Origin: a virus
Length of the DNA: 21,703 nucleotides
Strand: one strand, 5' to 3'
Virus record (IMG/VR): IMGVR_UViG_3300047551_000310
Location: 1 to 21,703 of that record
How positions within the stretch are numbered: position 1 is the stretch's first letter; each line of letters starts with the position of its first letter. The notes under the pieces were generated by a model. It saw only the letters and a program-made list of their open reading frames with translations. It ran no database searches and was not told where the DNA came from. The translations under genes were made by a program, and so were the position numbers. Shown piece by piece: positions 10,162 to 19,696 of this stretch.

Positions 10162-11365
10162 AGCGTTTTTGCAGTTGCTGCAAGGTTAGCTCTGACCCAT
10201 CATCGCGCACAAATTTAGCAATGGCATCCTTAGGCCCGTACTTACGGCTCAGCATTTCAAAGTATGGAGCCCTACCTTTGCCCAGGATCTCCTCCTGCTG
10301 TGCCTTTGATTGCTTTGCCAGCCATTCGCCGTAGGTCATATCAGCAGGCACTTGGCCGTCTGCTGAAGCGCGCCTGCCGCCTGGCGGTGGAGGAAAGCCC
10401 AGTGCCTCGTAGTCAATCACGGGAACCGTCGTAGACCTGCAGTTGAAGTGCTGTGGCGGGGTCGGACCTTTGCCGTACTCAAACTGGCGGCCATCCAGCG
10501 CCCGGCAGATTGCACTGGTGCGGCTGTCCAGCGTTGCGACATAGCGATACTTGTTCGTGATGTCTTGGTTTACTTCATAAACCTGCTGGCTTGCGGCATT
10601 AGATACCTGATTGATGCTGGTGCGAACGATGGCATTGATCTGATTGTTGGCCACTTTCGTTAGTTCACCACCTGACTGCACTAACTGCCGGACGCTCTTG
10701 GCCTCTTCGCCAAATTCAAGATTACCGATCAGGCGGCGCACAATATCAGGCGTTGGCTCGCCTGTTAGCAGGCCATTGCGTACGACCTGGCTGAATCGTT
10801 CTGCTTGATCTACCGCCAAGCCACGAAATGCTTTCGTCACGACTTCTCCATTAGGAAGCGTGATCGTGGCGCCTTGCGCTGCGGTGAGGTTGAACACACC
10901 AGTGCCAGCTTGGCGGACTAATGCTTCAGTGCCGTAAACCGATTTTAACAGGTCGTCCGATAGCGCAACCACATTGATCTGCGTCGGGTCCGTGGTGATT
11001 ACTGACTGCGCAAATTGCGGGCTGATTTCTACCGTGCGGACGATACTGCGCTCACCAGGCGGCAATGCACGCCGTAGTTGATCTATCACGAACTCAGACT
11101 GCAGCTGCGCAATGCCTTGCAGCTCAGATGCTGTAATCTCCGTTGCGTCACCAGTCCAGCCATCAAGGCTTGCCTTCAGCTGCGCCAGTATTGCCCGTAG
11201 GCGTGCTGCCTTGACCGGTGCGGCGAGGTCATCAATTGTGCGCAGTTGATTTGCAGCATCAATAATGATGTCGTTATAGGCATTAATGATGCGCCTGGCG
11301 ACACTGTTGCTGTATCGGTTCAGATCAATCGCATTGCGGAAGAATGCTGCTGGCGTGTCGCTCAT
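10145..11365 (-). CDS. Head morphogenesis / minor capsid protein (SPP1 gp7-like)
   Basis: 406 residues. The C-terminal half carries the phage head morphogenesis motif of the SPP1 gp7 / Mu gpF family (PF04233): KYRYVATLDSRTSAICRALD at about residues 272-291, then FEYGKG.....P, then HFNCRS at about 306-311, with paired Cys287 and Cys309 and His306. The N-terminal half is helical. The protein is thought to bind the portal and enter the head in a few copies, helping early DNA entry. The start overlaps the portal stop by ATGA, and portal followed by gp7-like is the usual order. The C-terminus (about residues 335-406) is a helical extension. Confidence 0.9.
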   Translation of the reverse strand: MSDTPAAFFRNAIDLNRYSNSVARRIINAYNDIIIDAANQLRTIDDLAAPVKAARLRAILAQLKASLDGWTGDATEITASELQGIAQLQSEFVIDQLRRALPPGERSIVRTVEISPQFAQSVITTDPTQINVVALSDDLLKSVYGTEALVRQAGTGVFNLTAAQGATITLPNGEVVTKAFRGLAVDQAERFSQVVRNGLLTGEPTPDIVRRLIGNLEFGEEAKSVRQLVQSGGELTKVANNQINAIVRTSINQVSNAASQQVYEVNQDITNKYRYVATLDSRTSAICRALDGRQFEYGKGPTPPQHFNCRSTTVPVIDYEALGFPPPPGGRRASADGQVPADMTYGEWLAKQSKAQQEEILGKGRAPYFEMLSRKYGPKDAIAKFVRDDGSELTLQQLQKRYGSAL

Positions 11366-15218: not shown

Positions 15219-15538
15219 GACATCTCAAACCGCAGCAGCTTGGCTTGGTCTTCTAGGGCTTTCAGAGCAACACTGATCTGGTTTTTATCAGATGCTCGTC
15301 GTTCATATTCTTGAAGCCGAGCAATAGCAGCAGCAAGCCATTGAGGGCGCTCTAGTTCAGCATCTAGCGCCATAAGTTGACGAGCACGAGCCATGTAATT
15401 CTCGGCTTGACGCTCGCCAACATTCCATTGCTCCGAACAATGGCGAACAATTTGTGTTCTACTGTATGCACGCAAAAGGAGATCGTAAACGGCATTTACC
15501 CGTTCGTCGATCTCCGTGTTGGTGCCTTTTCTAGCCAC
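15215..15538 (-). CDS. terS: Terminase small subunit
   Basis: 107 residues with a GTG start at 15538 that overlaps the clamp stop by 8 bases (GTGGCTAG). Residues about 8-50 form a helix-turn-helix-like unit (VNAVYDLLLRAYSRTQIVRH, then NVGERQAENYMARARQL) resembling DNA-binding domains of small terminases. The C-terminal half is a helical oligomerisation region (LAAAIARLQEYERRASDKNQ). The protein recognises the packaging site and stimulates the large subunit. It is immediately upstream of terL with an ATGA overlap. Confidence 0.88.
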   Translation of the reverse strand: MARKGTNTEIDERVNAVYDLLLRAYSRTQIVRHCSEQWNVGERQAENYMARARQLMALDAELERPQWLAAAIARLQEYERRASDKNQISVALKALEDQAKLLRFEMS

Positions 15539-16571
15539 GTATCTGAACCGGCATGATCAAGTTGGTCTGTTCCATTGTATCAAGCGGACGAATGACGATG
15601 GGGGTGGTTGCCGTATTGGCTGAAATTACCACCTCGTCACCGTCAAGGCCTTGCAGTGCATCCAGGAGGTAGGAGGCATTGCAGGCCAGTGTAGGCAGGG
15701 TGCCGTTGCCGATGACGGTCTCCTTGCCGCCAGAGCCTTCGGATTCTGCGGCGACGGACTTGGCGGTGAGCTTGATGATGCCGTTACCGCTGACGATGGC
15801 GGCACGCTGAATGGCGACGATCAGGTCATCGCGGTCGAACTGACAGGTGTGCTTGAAGTCCTGTGGTACGAGGCTTTGCACCTGAGGGTAGGTGCCTTGC
15901 AGCAGACGGCAGATGATCTGCGCACCACCTGCTAACTGCAGGTTGGCGTAGGTGCCATCGGCTGCGATGGACAGCGGTCCATGGCATAGGCGCAGCAGCC
16001 GTGCTGGCAATACCAGGTCGATGGTGCCGTCCCAGTCGAGCTGACGAATGGCGAGGCGATGGCCGTCGGTGGCCTCGAGGGTGAGCACACCAGCTGCAGC
16101 GTGGAGATGTACGCCTTGCAGCAGGGCCTTAGCGGCATCGTTGCTGGCGGCTGTGGTGACGGCAGCGATGGCAGGCCCGAGATCGATCAGGTCCGAAGGC
16201 TCGGCCGTGATGACCGGCAGCGTGGGGAAGTCTTCGGCTTCGTGCGACTGAAGGCTGTAGGAGCCGCTTGTGGTGGCCAGCTTGAGCGATTGCCCGTCTA
16301 AGGCCACTGTGAGCGGCCCAGAGCCGTCCAGACGGCCTACGAGGTCCGCCAGCAGCCGATGGGGCGGGCAGGCGGCCCCAGGAGCCTCTACAGCGGCCGG
16401 GATGACGATGCTGATGCCGGTCTCCAGGTCATAGGTGGTGAGGCGCACGGCATCGGCTTCGGCGGTGAGCAGGACACCGCTGAGGACTTGATGCTGCTTG
16501 CCGGAACCAACGGCTTTGGCGACGGCTTTGAGGGCGGCGCTGAGATCAGCGCATGAGGCGACGAACTTCAT
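15531..16571 (-). CDS. dnaN: DNA polymerase III beta sliding clamp homolog
   Basis: 346 residues (E. coli 366) from the ATG at 16571. A longer in-frame reading from 17066 only translates the repeat region and is rejected. Clamp hallmarks: ATDGHRLAI at 167-175 (the peptide-binding pocket loop), CRLLQGTYPQVQSLVP at 221-236 (E. coli RLIEGRFPDYRRVLP), CNASYLLDALQGL at 297-309, and a C-terminal LIMPVQI matching the E. coli MPMRL tail. Three domains of about 115 residues fit a dimeric ring. The clamp would tether a polymerase, probably the host one, since none is visible here. It overlaps both the 66-residue ORF (26 bases) and terS (8 bases), so it lies at the head of the packaging operon. Confidence 0.93.
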   Translation of the reverse strand: MKFVASCADLSAALKAVAKAVGSGKQHQVLSGVLLTAEADAVRLTTYDLETGISIVIPAAVEAPGAACPPHRLLADLVGRLDGSGPLTVALDGQSLKLATTSGSYSLQSHEAEDFPTLPVITAEPSDLIDLGPAIAAVTTAASNDAAKALLQGVHLHAAAGVLTLEATDGHRLAIRQLDWDGTIDLVLPARLLRLCHGPLSIAADGTYANLQLAGGAQIICRLLQGTYPQVQSLVPQDFKHTCQFDRDDLIVAIQRAAIVSGNGIIKLTAKSVAAESEGSGGKETVIGNGTLPTLACNASYLLDALQGLDGDEVVISANTATTPIVIRPLDTMEQTNLIMPVQIRG

Positions 16572-16746
16572 CGGCGGATTGGGTGAGGGCAGAGATCTGG
16601 TCGTCGGTGTAGCCGCGGTATTTGCGGCAATGGCTGAGGAACAGATCGAAGTGGTCCAGGAAGTAGAGCGCGTCCTCTTCGCTGGGCTGCTGGCGTGAGC
16701 CAAGGCAGTCCACGTAGAAGGCGATGGCAGGAGAGGGCTGAGCCAT
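16546..16746 (-). CDS. Small hypothetical protein ahead of the clamp gene
   Basis: 66 residues from the ATG at 16746. The open frame extends further upstream, but that part lies in the repeat region. The sequence begins MAQPSPAIAFYVDCLGSRQQ, then an acidic helical stretch EEDALYFLDHFDLFLSHCRK, YTDDQISALTQSADEVRRLM. It looks like a compact all-helical protein. Its last 26 bases overlap the clamp start, so it is co-translated and may work with the clamp or the origin. I do not recognise it, and no ligand motif or clamp-binding motif is obvious. Confidence 0.65.
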   Translation of the reverse strand: MAQPSPAIAFYVDCLGSRQQPSEEDALYFLDHFDLFLSHCRKYRGYTDDQISALTQSADEVRRLMR

Positions 16747-17087
16747 GGGGTCATGGTGCCTGATCCATGGCGCTGCTGCCATGAAATGTTGCGACTTGTG
16801 ACGCCGGACGCCAAACCCATTGGCATGACTGGGTTCGGACGCAATCGGGCGCAAGTCGGACGCCAAAACCCTTGCAAACACTGGGCGGACGCAAAAACGG
16901 GGTTTCCCCTTACCCCCCCTATACGTAAAAAATGTTCACCCCGTAACATCCCCCCCCTTTCTAAAAATCTGATTTGATTTACCCCTATTTGCGTCCGACA
17001 AGGCAAGAAGGTAGATAGGGGCAAGGTTTTTGCGTCCGAAATTTGCGTCCGACTTGCGTCCGACACGGACGCAACTTGCGTCCGACG
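16747..17087. other. Non-coding origin-like region
   Basis: 341 bases without a gene, the largest gap in the window. It holds ten of the eleven iterons described separately, an AT-richer core (about 16920-16990) and five C-runs. The iterons left of the core (16805-16894) all face one way, and those on the right are mostly in the opposite sense, an arrangement that resembles an iteron-controlled origin. It also must contain any promoter for the leftward clamp-terminase operon, but I could not fix one. An origin role is inferred from the repeats and the adjacent primase-helicase gene. Confidence 0.7.
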
Positions 17088-17161
17088 TCATGCCCATGAA
17101 TCCAGCCTGAGACCCACCAATAGACGATCGCGACTCTTTCCGCCGCCTCTGTCGGACGCAA
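16805..17161. repeat. Iteron family TTGCGTCCGAC / GTCGGACGCAA, 11 copies
   Basis: Copies (complete or one to two mismatches, some truncated): reverse sense at 16805-16811, 16834-16844, 16855-16864, 16885-16894, 17064-17074 and 17151-17161. Forward sense at 16989-16999, 17030-17040, 17043-17053, 17054-17064 and 17076-17086. From 17043 to 17086 four copies lie on an exact 11-base period, one of them inverted, which puts them on one DNA face. The last copy (17151-17161) is inside the primase-helicase C-terminal coding sequence. Such iterons are classic initiator-binding sites. Confidence 0.88.
16906..16985 (-). other. G-run cluster, possible G-quadruplex
   Basis: Five runs of 4 to 8 C on the plus strand (16906-16909, 16913-16919, 16939-16942, 16950-16957, 16982-16985) give G-runs on the minus strand, with loops of 3, 19, 7 and 24 bases. 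The two short loops are favourable, but the two long ones weaken the case for a stable quadruplex. The runs sit between the left and right iteron groups. They would be in the leader of a leftward transcript only if it starts upstream of them. Confidence 0.45.
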
Positions 17162-19451
17162 GTTTCGGGAAGATCCGCCGCAATGCCGGCATCAGTAGCC
17201 GCGGTGCCTTGACCGTCCGATCAGCCGGCGGATCCATCAGCCAGCGCCCACCAGCGTCGATATAACCTTCCTCGCGATACCAGTTCTGTAGAGCGTCCCA
17301 AACGCGTTTGCAAGACACTTGTGCATTTTCATCCCAGGTCAATCCGACGGCATCGCAGAAATCCCAAAGATGGCAAGATCCACGCCTTACATCTTGCATG
17401 GCCTGGTTGCCTGTGGCGTAGTCGATACCATCCGAAACACTGAGTGCCATGCCTTCAAGAAGCCAATTTAAGAACGCTGGGCAGATTTGCTCTTGGATGA
17501 AAGATGGGTCATCCTTTAACCTTGGATCTGCCTGTAGATGCGTCGGTTCTGTTGGTGTTGCCATGAAAGTTTTGCGGAACTTAAACACGTGGAACCGCGT
17601 CTCAATGGCAGCCTGCTCACCAGTCAGTGATGGATCTTTGTTCAAATTAAACACAAACAGCACGGACGGCACAAACTGAGACTCCTGCAAACCCTTCAAC
17701 TCGTAAGACAATTCCTCGCCGCTGATTGCGGCCTTAAGTGATTGCAGGTTGTCAATACTGACGAATTGCGAGTTTTCACTGGACCAATTAACCGATGCAC
17801 CACGAAGCGGCGCGATTGGAAACTTGCGGCCTTGGTCGTACTGCCGAAAATCAGCCAGAGTGCAAGAGGTGAAATTGCGACTACCGAGCGTGTCTCGCAA
17901 CGCCGTGCGGATGGTGTCCTTGCCGTTGCTGCCTTCACCGATCATCAGCACTGCGCGAGGACGGCCTCTGGTGGCGCGATATTTGGCAAGGTCAAGGCCG
18001 CTGCCAAGGATGCGCTGGATAGTGTCACGGTCGCCAGGCTCTACGGCTTCCAGCAATCGCCATAGGTGCTGTGCGTTGGCTTGAGGGTCGTAGTCGTAGT
18101 CGGTGACGTAGGTAAAAGCCACATCCGGGTCATGCGGTGTGAAGGACAGGTCAAGCTTGCGGCCTGACCATGACCAAGACACCACGCCATTGCGGCAGTT
18201 AATGGCATTCGATGGGTTGACATCAACCGGCTTGAGGAGCCGCCGCATCCATGCCAGGGCTTCATCTACATATTTGGGACGGCGCCATGGGTAGACCGGT
18301 TCCGACTGCTTTTCGGTTCTGACATGCAGCAACGAGAGAAAAGCCGCCAGCTCAGGCGCTATCTCCTCGTCGGGCCTTGCTTGGTAATGCGTGCCATTCC
18401 AGCAATGGAGTACGCCGTCAACACAAATCCAGCGGTCACGGGGATGCTTAAAGACATGGGTGACAGCAAGATCAAGCCATTCGGTGCCGGCCTTGTCATA
18501 GAGCTGCAGGTTGACGACCTCACCATCTGATGGCTGCCGACGCGGCCGAGGCATTGGCGTCGCTGGCCTCCAGCCGTGATGCCGCGCCCAGTACCAGAAG
18601 GTGCCAGCGGTGATGCGGTCACCACCTGAGGATGCGATCTGCTCAAGGCCTTGCCATTGCGGGCTGTGCTGCTGCATCAGCTCAATGGCGAGGTCGGCGC
18701 TACCGCAGGCTTGGATCAGCCCCCAGAAGATGTTGCGGTAGATGTGGTAAGTGCCGCTACCTGGTGTGCGTGGCGGGATAACAGCAAGGGCATCACGGAT
18801 GTCGCTGATGCTGCGCTCTACTGGTTCGGTGTGCTGCTGTGCTGGCTTCTGGTGCTGATAGAAGGCCTCGGACGGCAGGACCGCTTCGATGTCGGCAACG
18901 GTGTAGCGATGGCCGGCGCTAGTGACCATCTGGCACGGATCACCGAGACTGCCATCAGCCATGGCGTAGTAGCTGCCGGGCAACCGCATGACGCGCGAGG
19001 CGTTCTTGATGCTGCGGTCGGCATCGCAATAGTCGAGTAGTCGCGCCTGCACCAGCTCCCAGTGAGCCGGTGTAATCGGATCGGTGAGAACCCAGTAGCT
19101 GTGGATGGATTTGCCGCCGGTGTTGATCTGAAACGTGGGCTCAGGCAACTTGAGCGACTGCCATGCGGTGAGCTGCCATTCGCGCGGTCGGTCGTCCCAT
19201 TCAGCAAAGAAGGCACGACAGGCGGTGATGTCGGCATTGGTGTCACCGCCATCGTTGATGACGACGTAGACGCCACGACCTTCGGCTTGCCATTGCTCGA
19301 TGAGCTTCTTGGAGGCACCACCTTTGCGGCCCTTGTCGGTGCCTTTGTCTGGGTGGTCGCGATGGAGGAAGGCGCGAAGACGGATGGCACCGGCCGGCTT
19401 GCCGAGCAGGGCAATGAACCGACGAGCTTCATCAAAGTCGATGGGCTTCAT
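17088..19451 (-). CDS. Primase-helicase (AEP-like primase, PriCT_2-like linker, SF3 helicase)
   Basis: 787 residues. Residues about 1-190 resemble phage/plasmid AEP primases: a metal-binding FFAEWDD (81-87), a GGKSIHSYWVL motif (113-122) and DRSIKNASRVMRLPG (145-159). Residues about 215-295 resemble PriCT_2 (ISDIRDALAVIPPRT and a following WGLIQACGSADLAIELM). The C-terminal half is a P4/D5-type SF3 helicase with Walker A GEGSNGKDT (505-513), a B-type NWSSEN (555-560) and a sensor stretch VLFVFNLNKD (597-606). It probably melts the origin, primes and unwinds DNA. The gene starts in an ATGA overlap with the small RHH gene and ends 2 bases from an iteron. One iteron lies inside its 3' end. Confidence 0.9.
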   Translation of the reverse strand: MKPIDFDEARRFIALLGKPAGAIRLRAFLHRDHPDKGTDKGRKGGASKKLIEQWQAEGRGVYVVINDGGDTNADITACRAFFAEWDDRPREWQLTAWQSLKLPEPTFQINTGGKSIHSYWVLTDPITPAHWELVQARLLDYCDADRSIKNASRVMRLPGSYYAMADGSLGDPCQMVTSAGHRYTVADIEAVLPSEAFYQHQKPAQQHTEPVERSISDIRDALAVIPPRTPGSGTYHIYRNIFWGLIQACGSADLAIELMQQHSPQWQGLEQIASSGGDRITAGTFWYWARHHGWRPATPMPRPRRQPSDGEVVNLQLYDKAGTEWLDLAVTHVFKHPRDRWICVDGVLHCWNGTHYQARPDEEIAPELAAFLSLLHVRTEKQSEPVYPWRRPKYVDEALAWMRRLLKPVDVNPSNAINCRNGVVSWSWSGRKLDLSFTPHDPDVAFTYVTDYDYDPQANAQHLWRLLEAVEPGDRDTIQRILGSGLDLAKYRATRGRPRAVLMIGEGSNGKDTIRTALRDTLGSRNFTSCTLADFRQYDQGRKFPIAPLRGASVNWSSENSQFVSIDNLQSLKAAISGEELSYELKGLQESQFVPSVLFVFNLNKDPSLTGEQAAIETRFHVFKFRKTFMATPTEPTHLQADPRLKDDPSFIQEQICPAFLNWLLEGMALSVSDGIDYATGNQAMQDVRRGSCHLWDFCDAVGLTWDENAQVSCKRVWDALQNWYREEGYIDAGGRWLMDPPADRTVKAPRLLMPALRRIFPKLASDRGGGKSRDRLLVGLRLDSWA

Positions 19452-19627
19452 GCCTGCTCCTGCGACTTGCTGGCCGGCAGGATGCCGTCACGGTGGAATC
19501 GCATGGCCTCCTGGATCACAAGACGCAATGTTGCAGATCGTGACAAGCCAGCTGGCCGCCAGGAATCAAGCCATTGCAACTGCTCTGGGGTCAGCTGCAC
19601 GGATAACGGATGGGCGAGGAGTGGCAT
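19448..19627 (-). CDS. Small ribbon-helix-helix type protein
   Basis: 59 residues from the ATG at 19627. The frame is open to a TTG at 19678, but this would swallow the promoter region, so 19627 is preferred. A strand SVQLTPEQLQ, helix QWLDSWR, then LSRSATLRLVIQEAMRFH gives the strand-helix-turn-helix pattern of Arc/CopG regulators. It is the first gene of the leftward arm and overlaps the primase-helicase start (ATGA). It probably represses its own promoter and perhaps the divergent HNH operon by binding the adjacent palindrome. Assignment is from pattern, since the family is too short to be certain. Confidence 0.7.
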   Translation of the reverse strand: MPLLAHPLSVQLTPEQLQWLDSWRPAGLSRSATLRLVIQEAMRFHRDGILPASKSQEQA

Positions 19628-19644
19628 GGCGCCTGCGGTGACGC

Positions 19645-19672
19645 TTGACAGGCTAGCGGGTTCCGCTAGAGT
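19645..19672 (+). promoter_or_regulatory. Divergent promoter with palindromic operator
   Basis: Rightward -35-like TTGACA at 19645-19650 and -10-like TAGAGT at 19667-19672 with a 16-base spacer. Between and over the -10 lies a perfect inverted repeat CTAGCGG-GTT-CCGCTAG (19653-19669). On the opposite strand TTGGCA and TAGCCT, 17 bases apart, could drive the leftward arm across the same palindrome. A dimeric repressor bound there would block both arms. Promoter boxes are inferred by eye. The palindrome is directly visible. Confidence 0.6.
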
Positions 19673-19696
19673 TGCCAAGCATCACGCCCAGGTTCA

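Follow-up and report, generated by a model that had tools for sequence, protein, structure and literature searches.

An opposed iteron array overlapping a primase-helicase gene as a candidate replication origin of uncultured cyanophages

The locus and its genes

The window analysed here is a whole IMG/VR record, a virus contig of 21,703 bp that probably represents part of the genome of a tailed cyanophage. Its minus strand encodes, at positions 17088-19451, a primase-helicase of 787 amino acids, a candidate origin-binding initiator in which a PrimPol (AEP) domain, an SF3-type helicase of the D5_N/DUF5906 kind and a predicted C-terminal winged helix of the RFX type are combined. The Pfam families D5_N and DUF5906 were both above the cut-off. 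The helicase part matches the Rep protein of SaPI5 (7ola, E 1e-5), and the AEP domain matches the PrimPol of phage S-2L (6zp9, E 4e-31) with 35-38% identity. A protein resembling the ribbon-helix-helix (RHH) type is encoded just before the primase (19448-19678).

At the other end of the gene, beyond the repeat array that is the subject of this work, lie a 66-amino-acid ORF (16546-16746, minus strand) with no Pfam or PHROG match, whose position is taken by a ribbon-helix-helix gene in most relatives, and the gene of a DNA polymerase III beta-type sliding clamp of 346 amino acids (15531-16571, minus strand). Past the clamp, a 107-amino-acid ORF in the position of the small terminase (PHROG: unknown) is followed by the large terminase, which is 76-82% identical to those of the Synechococcus phages S-H1 and KBS-S-2A and of Prochlorococcus phages. 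A preliminary interpretation of the window, made from its letters and referred to here as the sequence-only reading, had the array flanked by the primase-helicase and clamp genes and united all three in one origin cassette. The primase-helicase gene is indeed adjacent and is even overlapped by the array, but the clamp gene is not a direct neighbour, since the 66-amino-acid ORF intervenes. As a member of the cassette, the clamp is frequent, PF00712 being present in 10 of 12 relatives, but not obligatory: L051, L053 and L068 keep the array with no clamp detected at that position, which is thus not where a clamp is needed. The clamp of the window is 38-50% identical to those of most relatives (L009 excepted), far below the 75-90% that primase and terminase mostly reach, and the clamp gene may therefore be swapped often.

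An array of opposed iterons around a low-stability core

The array spans the final codons of the primase-helicase gene (stop codon at 17088) and the gap beyond. A pattern count in the window found, within 16803-17161, five exact copies of TTGCGTCCGAC, nine with at most one mismatch and twelve with at most two; the lone extra match with at most one mismatch lies outside the array, at 10776. The heptamer core CGGACGC/GCGTCCG is present in 11 copies in 400 bp, which accounts for the eleven copies reported by the sequence-only reading. The 9-mer CGGACGCAA occurs nine times in 360 bp, whereas the best-clustered 9-mer in 40 dinucleotide shuffles, with any 9-mer counted, occurs four times, and the iteron array is therefore real.

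The copies form two opposed half-arrays that flank a low-stability core. Half-array 1 (16803-16894), on the far side of the core as seen from the primase-helicase gene, contains five copies with one or two mismatches each, all on the minus strand (16803-16813, 16834-16844, 16844-16854, 16855-16865 and 16884-16894), and its position and orientation are conserved in relatives. Half-array 2 (16989-17086) is mostly on the plus strand (16989-16999, 17030-17040, 17043-17053, 17054-17064 and 17076-17086, with 17064-17074 on the minus strand), and its spacing is conserved in relatives. A further exact iteron (17151-17161, minus strand) is embedded in the primase-helicase ORF, where it encodes residues 764-767 (L-A-S-D) at the base of a predicted wing. 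The reversal of orientation about an AT-richer core that had been described earlier is thus confirmed, a minus half being followed by a mainly plus half. The four copies that were thought to share one 11-base phase at 17043-17086 are really three direct copies, at steps of 11 and 22, the last two of which enclose a single inverted copy. GC skew showed no clear extremum at the array, and an RNA family search of the array region gave no match.

The core between the half-arrays (16895-16988) is a candidate unwinding element. With a GC content of 45%, it is among the least stable ~1% of the contig; the core is similarly unstable in three of the four relatives tested and falls within ~2% in the fourth. 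Its G/C run TATAGGGGGGG (minus strand) is strand-asymmetric and is found again in relatives whose iterons differ.

Apart from the iteron, the array region contains a second, distinct motif that is common to relatives whatever the class of their iteron word. This constant element is present in the window on the plus strand as CCCATTGGCATGACTGGG (16816-16833) and as CCCTTGCAAACACTGGG (16869-16885). In the array regions of relatives it is enriched about 200-fold, with 38 copies of approximately CCCTTGCTATGACTGGG inside these regions against 4 in ~310 kb outside. Phages with different iterons share it, as do phage S-H1 and Javan225, a Streptococcus satellite phage in which 21 bp of it are found exactly inside the iteron array. 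The element also occurs at L287:3001-3021 and L288:2501-2526, and it lies between genes of T4-like and T7-like Synechococcus phages, at places where an array of this kind was not observed. Five viral contigs (L158, L117, L133, L155 and L188) contain three to four variants of it close together after a GCGTTATCAACAGATAAATCG stretch, at a spacing of ~30 bp in L158 and L117. A hairpin was considered and rejected, there being no clear covariation except at the inner CC:GG pairs. The 16-mer of the element was not found in the literature searched, and the element had no relevant Rfam match.

Layout and spacing in relatives

For comparison, 66 viral loci that carry the primase were used. About 50 IMG/VR relatives keep the array layout and the helical spacing. 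Place, layout and spacing agree in loci with 59-100% identity in the primase, and those with 69-100% identity have the array in the same place and in the same orientation pattern; because the loci were fetched by their primase, the co-occurrence of array and primase among them is a result of selection. Neighbouring copies in the same direction are 10-13, 21-22, 30-32, 40-44 or 50-52 bp apart, and the gap between the half-arrays is mostly 101-137 bp. This clustering of the spacings points to binding on one face of the helix, and helical phasing thus takes the place of the strict 11-bp period proposed earlier. A genome-wide count of the 11-mer had been set beforehand as a test of the origin. In near-full-length relatives (~40-43 kb), the exact 10-mer is confined to the array, and it is not spread through these ~42-kb genomes, as the origin proposal had predicted.

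The most distant relative, L061, is a 55.8-kb contig with two integrase-like genes and contains, away from the primase, a second repeat cluster (ATTCTCA, 12 copies in 400 bp, from 7436). In another relative, helicase and N6/N4 DNA-methylase domains are combined in one protein (L084:12026-14284), and a sigma-70 factor with regions 1.2-4 is encoded as well (L084:5123-6100).

The C-terminal domain of the primase-helicase

The C-terminal 98 residues of the primase-helicase (residues 690-787, encoded at 17091-17384 on the minus strand) were modelled from a 32-sequence alignment, with a mean pLDDT of 83.8; when the whole protein was modelled, the helicase region came out poorly, with a pLDDT below 50 at residues 459-692. 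As the Foldseek E-values for the winged-helix model were weak (best 0.095), the fold match rests on the predicted model together with structural re-alignment. The re-alignment gave Z-scores of 9.4 for RFX5 and 9.2 for RFX1 (1dp7), 7.7 for the origin-binding domain of phage P4 (1ka8; rmsd 2.5 over 77 aligned residues) and 6.3-6.9 for the C-terminal domain of the ASFV PrimPol, followed after a gap by unrelated entries with Z of 4.6 or less. The wing strands of the model are formed by residues 765-768 and 776-783. In RFX1, it is the wing rather than the recognition helix that reads the major groove (PMC4333399). From the predicted fold we infer that the C-terminal winged helix of the PrimPol-helicase would be the domain that binds the 11-bp iterons, with residues 690-787 as the putative binding region.

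The embedded iteron, which encodes the base of the wing, was also analysed at the codon level. In 27 genes of classes A and C (defined below), the invariant positions with 4- or 6-fold degenerate codons use a mean of 3.7 codons. Among these 209 positions, A765 and S766 are the only ones with a single codon, and these two codons, and no others, lie wholly within the conserved stretch of the embedded iteron. The absence of synonymous variation at A765 and S766 thus indicates that the DNA itself is selected there.

Switching of the iteron word

The iteron word varies by lineage, and all copies of one phage vary together, the forms being …CCGAC, …CCGCC, TTTGCCTTCG and something close to TTTGGGTCCG. 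As full words, the lineages have TTGCGTCCGA, TTGCGTCCGC or TTTGCCTTCG, and L061 has approximately TTTGGGTCCG. We distinguish class A (CCGA), class C (CCGC) and class T (TTTGCCTTCG). A joint change of 8-11 sites under a fixed layout is the outcome that a co-evolving, sequence-reading protein would be expected to produce, and one would not look for it in an artefact of coding or composition.

Of the 832 columns of the primase alignment, only two, 767 and 769, tell classes A and C apart in every case, and both lie in or beside the predicted wing. Residue 767 is D or E in class A and A in class C, an association with the word class that is partly circular because the variable base of the embedded iteron determines this residue; at 769, where a one-residue insertion stands against a gap, there is no such circularity. 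Two natural mosaics agree with this pattern, in opposite directions. L047 and L049 combine an A-like body with a C-like C-terminus and have class C iterons, and L067 combines a largely C-like body with an A-like wing and has class A iterons, although linkage alone could make these mosaics agree, because the array adjoins the C-terminal codons.

The position of the embedded iteron suggests a way in which site and reader might change together. An exchange of GAC for GCC in it would alter a binding site and at the same time a recognition residue (D767 to A767), and this self-coupled change could then spread through the array and drive the switching of words. We regard this as a speculative and rather unlikely possibility; if true, it would provide a built-in route to new origin specificities. 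The switched words with their matching C-terminal domains are a natural set for the study of joint changes of initiator and origin specificity, which bear on incompatibility and recombination between co-infecting phages.

Origin model and alternative explanations

That the array is a candidate origin is strongly supported by comparison, namely by its location, its clustering, its architecture, the switching of the word, the codon constraint and the P4-like domain. The kinship of the helicase with SaPI5 Rep and of the AEP domain with the S-2L PrimPol also speaks for it, as do parallels with other words that were met independently of the phage set, in pAL20115e, S-H1 and Javan225 (described below). 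On these grounds, we consider it very likely that the array is the replication origin of the phage, of the SaPI/P4 type, and that it is read by the protein of the gene which it overlaps. With the winged helix of the PrimPol-helicase bound to the iterons, the opposed half-arrays, spaced by whole helical turns, would load helicase assemblies on each side of the core. The SF3 helicase would then open the low-stability core, the fused AEP primase domain would prime, and a DNA polymerase would extend. Either the PrimPol itself or the host Pol III, perhaps recruited via the beta clamp of the phage, may serve as this polymerase. No polymerase of families A, B or III-alpha was over the cut-off in 12 relatives and the clamp is present in 10 of them, so that host Pol III with the phage clamp appears likely. 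The PrimPol is a possible candidate because that of S-2L has been proposed to be the sole possible polymerase of its phage (PMC8065100).

It is also conceivable that the array is an origin whose iterons are bound by a different phage protein, an RHH-like one encoded before the primase or after the array, and that this protein recruits the primase-helicase. Genes of the RHH type adjoin the array in most relatives, one of the RHH-type proteins has a weak NikA/RHH match, and a CopG gene is annotated on the plasmid pAL20115e too. However, the downstream RHH gene was undetected in L009, a near-copy of the window, and in L051, L053, L055-L058 and L061, all of which have arrays. Phylogenetic trees bear on the identity of the binder only in part. 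The trees of TerL and of the clamp need three changes of word class each, as few as that of the primase C-terminus, which is weakly resolved against word class; TerL and clamp being equally congruent with it, agreement of a tree with word class does not point to one particular binder. Still, the two RHH trees need more changes (6 and 5), and the primase already has a predicted domain like the one that binds the P4 origin. We thus think it unlikely that an RHH protein is the reader, and favour the primase-helicase.

A regulatory role as an operator array, either for the clamp-terminase operon or for autoregulation of the primase, would fit the location of the array between co-directional genes and upstream of the 66-amino-acid ORF (orf66), the clamp and the terminase. 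No sigma-70-like promoter was found in 16500-17400, a search of limited value for phage promoters. The layout of the array stays constant while the downstream genes vary widely, and iterons after the gene of a self-loading-type helicase are the layout of the SaPI origin (PMC7581432), here with opposed halves and a low-stability core. An operator in place of an origin is thus quite improbable. We would give next to no credence to a packaging (pac) or partition site: the terminase-region genes do start ~1.3 kb away on the same strand, but the array is retained beside a differing terminase region (L051, L053 and L068, with TerL 63% and TerS 31% identical) and in the contigs L055-L058 and L061, some of them short, which have no terminase match. 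In addition, ParA was over the cut-off in none of 12 relatives, and a 4.6-kb plasmid has the same layout.

Replication of the phage from the array by its own primase-helicase, the reading we prefer, is of an ordinary kind, as iteron origins beside self-loading initiators are already known, but natural variation documents this one unusually well. For this phage group, an iteron origin appears to be new as far as the literature searched shows, in which the single paper to mention both cyanophages and iterons deals, by its title and abstract, with a Vibrio phage and its satellite. The locus offers a concrete candidate origin and initiator for uncultured cyanophages related to S-H1 and KBS-S-2A.

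Comparison with known systems

The sequence-only reading had regarded the locus as a plasmid-like strategy that would fit a phage-plasmid or an episomally replicating prophage. The plasmid-like label holds for the kinship and mechanism of the replicon. The closest named relatives of the helicase part are Reps of cyanobacterial plasmids (DUF5906/D5 family, 30-38% identity), and the plasmid pAL20115e of Cyanobacterium aponinum (4.6 kb) has an array of 13 GACTCAC copies whose two halves are opposed, located at the 3' end of its rep gene, a homologue of the helicase, and beyond it; this replicon differs in being a small plasmid and in its word. The rep gene of pAL20115e (~2-2053) and the array (L100:2056-2399) are missing from the listed annotation of the plasmid, and the rep reading frame appears to continue through the array. 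The phage-plasmid or prophage part of the proposal is without support. ParA (PF01656), which was searched for in relatives because the window is a fragment, was over the cut-off in 0 of 12. A tyrosine integrase (PF00589) over the cut-off was absent from 11 of the 12, the exception being the most distant one (G011, 55.8 kb), and a pattern-based search of 84,980 bacterial and archaeal species genomes found no relatives.

The Rep protein of SaPIs reads an iteron origin directly downstream of its own gene through its C-terminal domain (PMC7581432). The cyanophage locus resembles the SaPI/PICI systems, as represented by SaPI5 Rep (7ola), in its D5_N-type helicase and in the short iterons that follow immediately on the initiator gene. 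It differs in belonging to a ~42-kb cyanophage, in its S-2L-type PrimPol N-terminus, in the nearby beta clamp, in the iteron within the coding sequence and in its words. That the iterons are read here in the SaPI manner, C-terminally and type-specifically, is suggested indirectly by the predicted fold, the discriminating columns and the mosaics. The window also encodes a large terminase, which groups with free-living cyanophages, and contains a series of structural-type genes, so that it does not qualify as a helper-dependent satellite; we thus speak of a SaPI-like replicon, not of a SaPI. Javan225, a Streptococcus PICI or satellite, has an opposed AAACTAATA array after a D5_N/DUF5906 Rep.

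In the alpha protein of phage P4, primase and helicase are fused with a C-terminal origin-binding winged helix. The predicted RFX-like winged helix at the C-terminus of the cyanophage protein, with its Z of 7.7 to 1ka8, is the point of likeness, whereas the iteron words and the phage type differ and the primase domain is here of the AEP type (6zp9). An AEP primase, an SF3 helicase and a winged helix are also joined in ORF904 of the archaeal plasmid pRN1, where the origin follows immediately on the gene (PMC4234260), but that origin is a 100-nt stem-loop and not an iteron array.

Shared with S-2L are the AEP domain and a set of genes for an SSAP/RecT-like protein, a PD-(D/E)XK nuclease, an SF2 helicase and a VRR-NUC protein. 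The helicase of S-2L is of the VapE type, however, and the GGCAC repeats after its PrimPol gene, whose product has been proposed as the sole possible polymerase (PMC8065100), are weak: GGCAC reaches its highest frequency where it would be expected, yet in a genome-wide comparison no 7- or 8-mer is conspicuous at that site. Phage S-H1, whose terminase is 82% identical to that of the window, has an opposed CCGTT[C/A]GGA array (L097:5467-5743, at about 17.65-17.93 kb of MK105819) beside an unrelated primase gene of the TOPRIM type and ahead of RHH-like and clamp genes; a different initiator is thus combined with the same origin layout. One layout joins replication in phages, PICIs and cyanobacterial plasmids.
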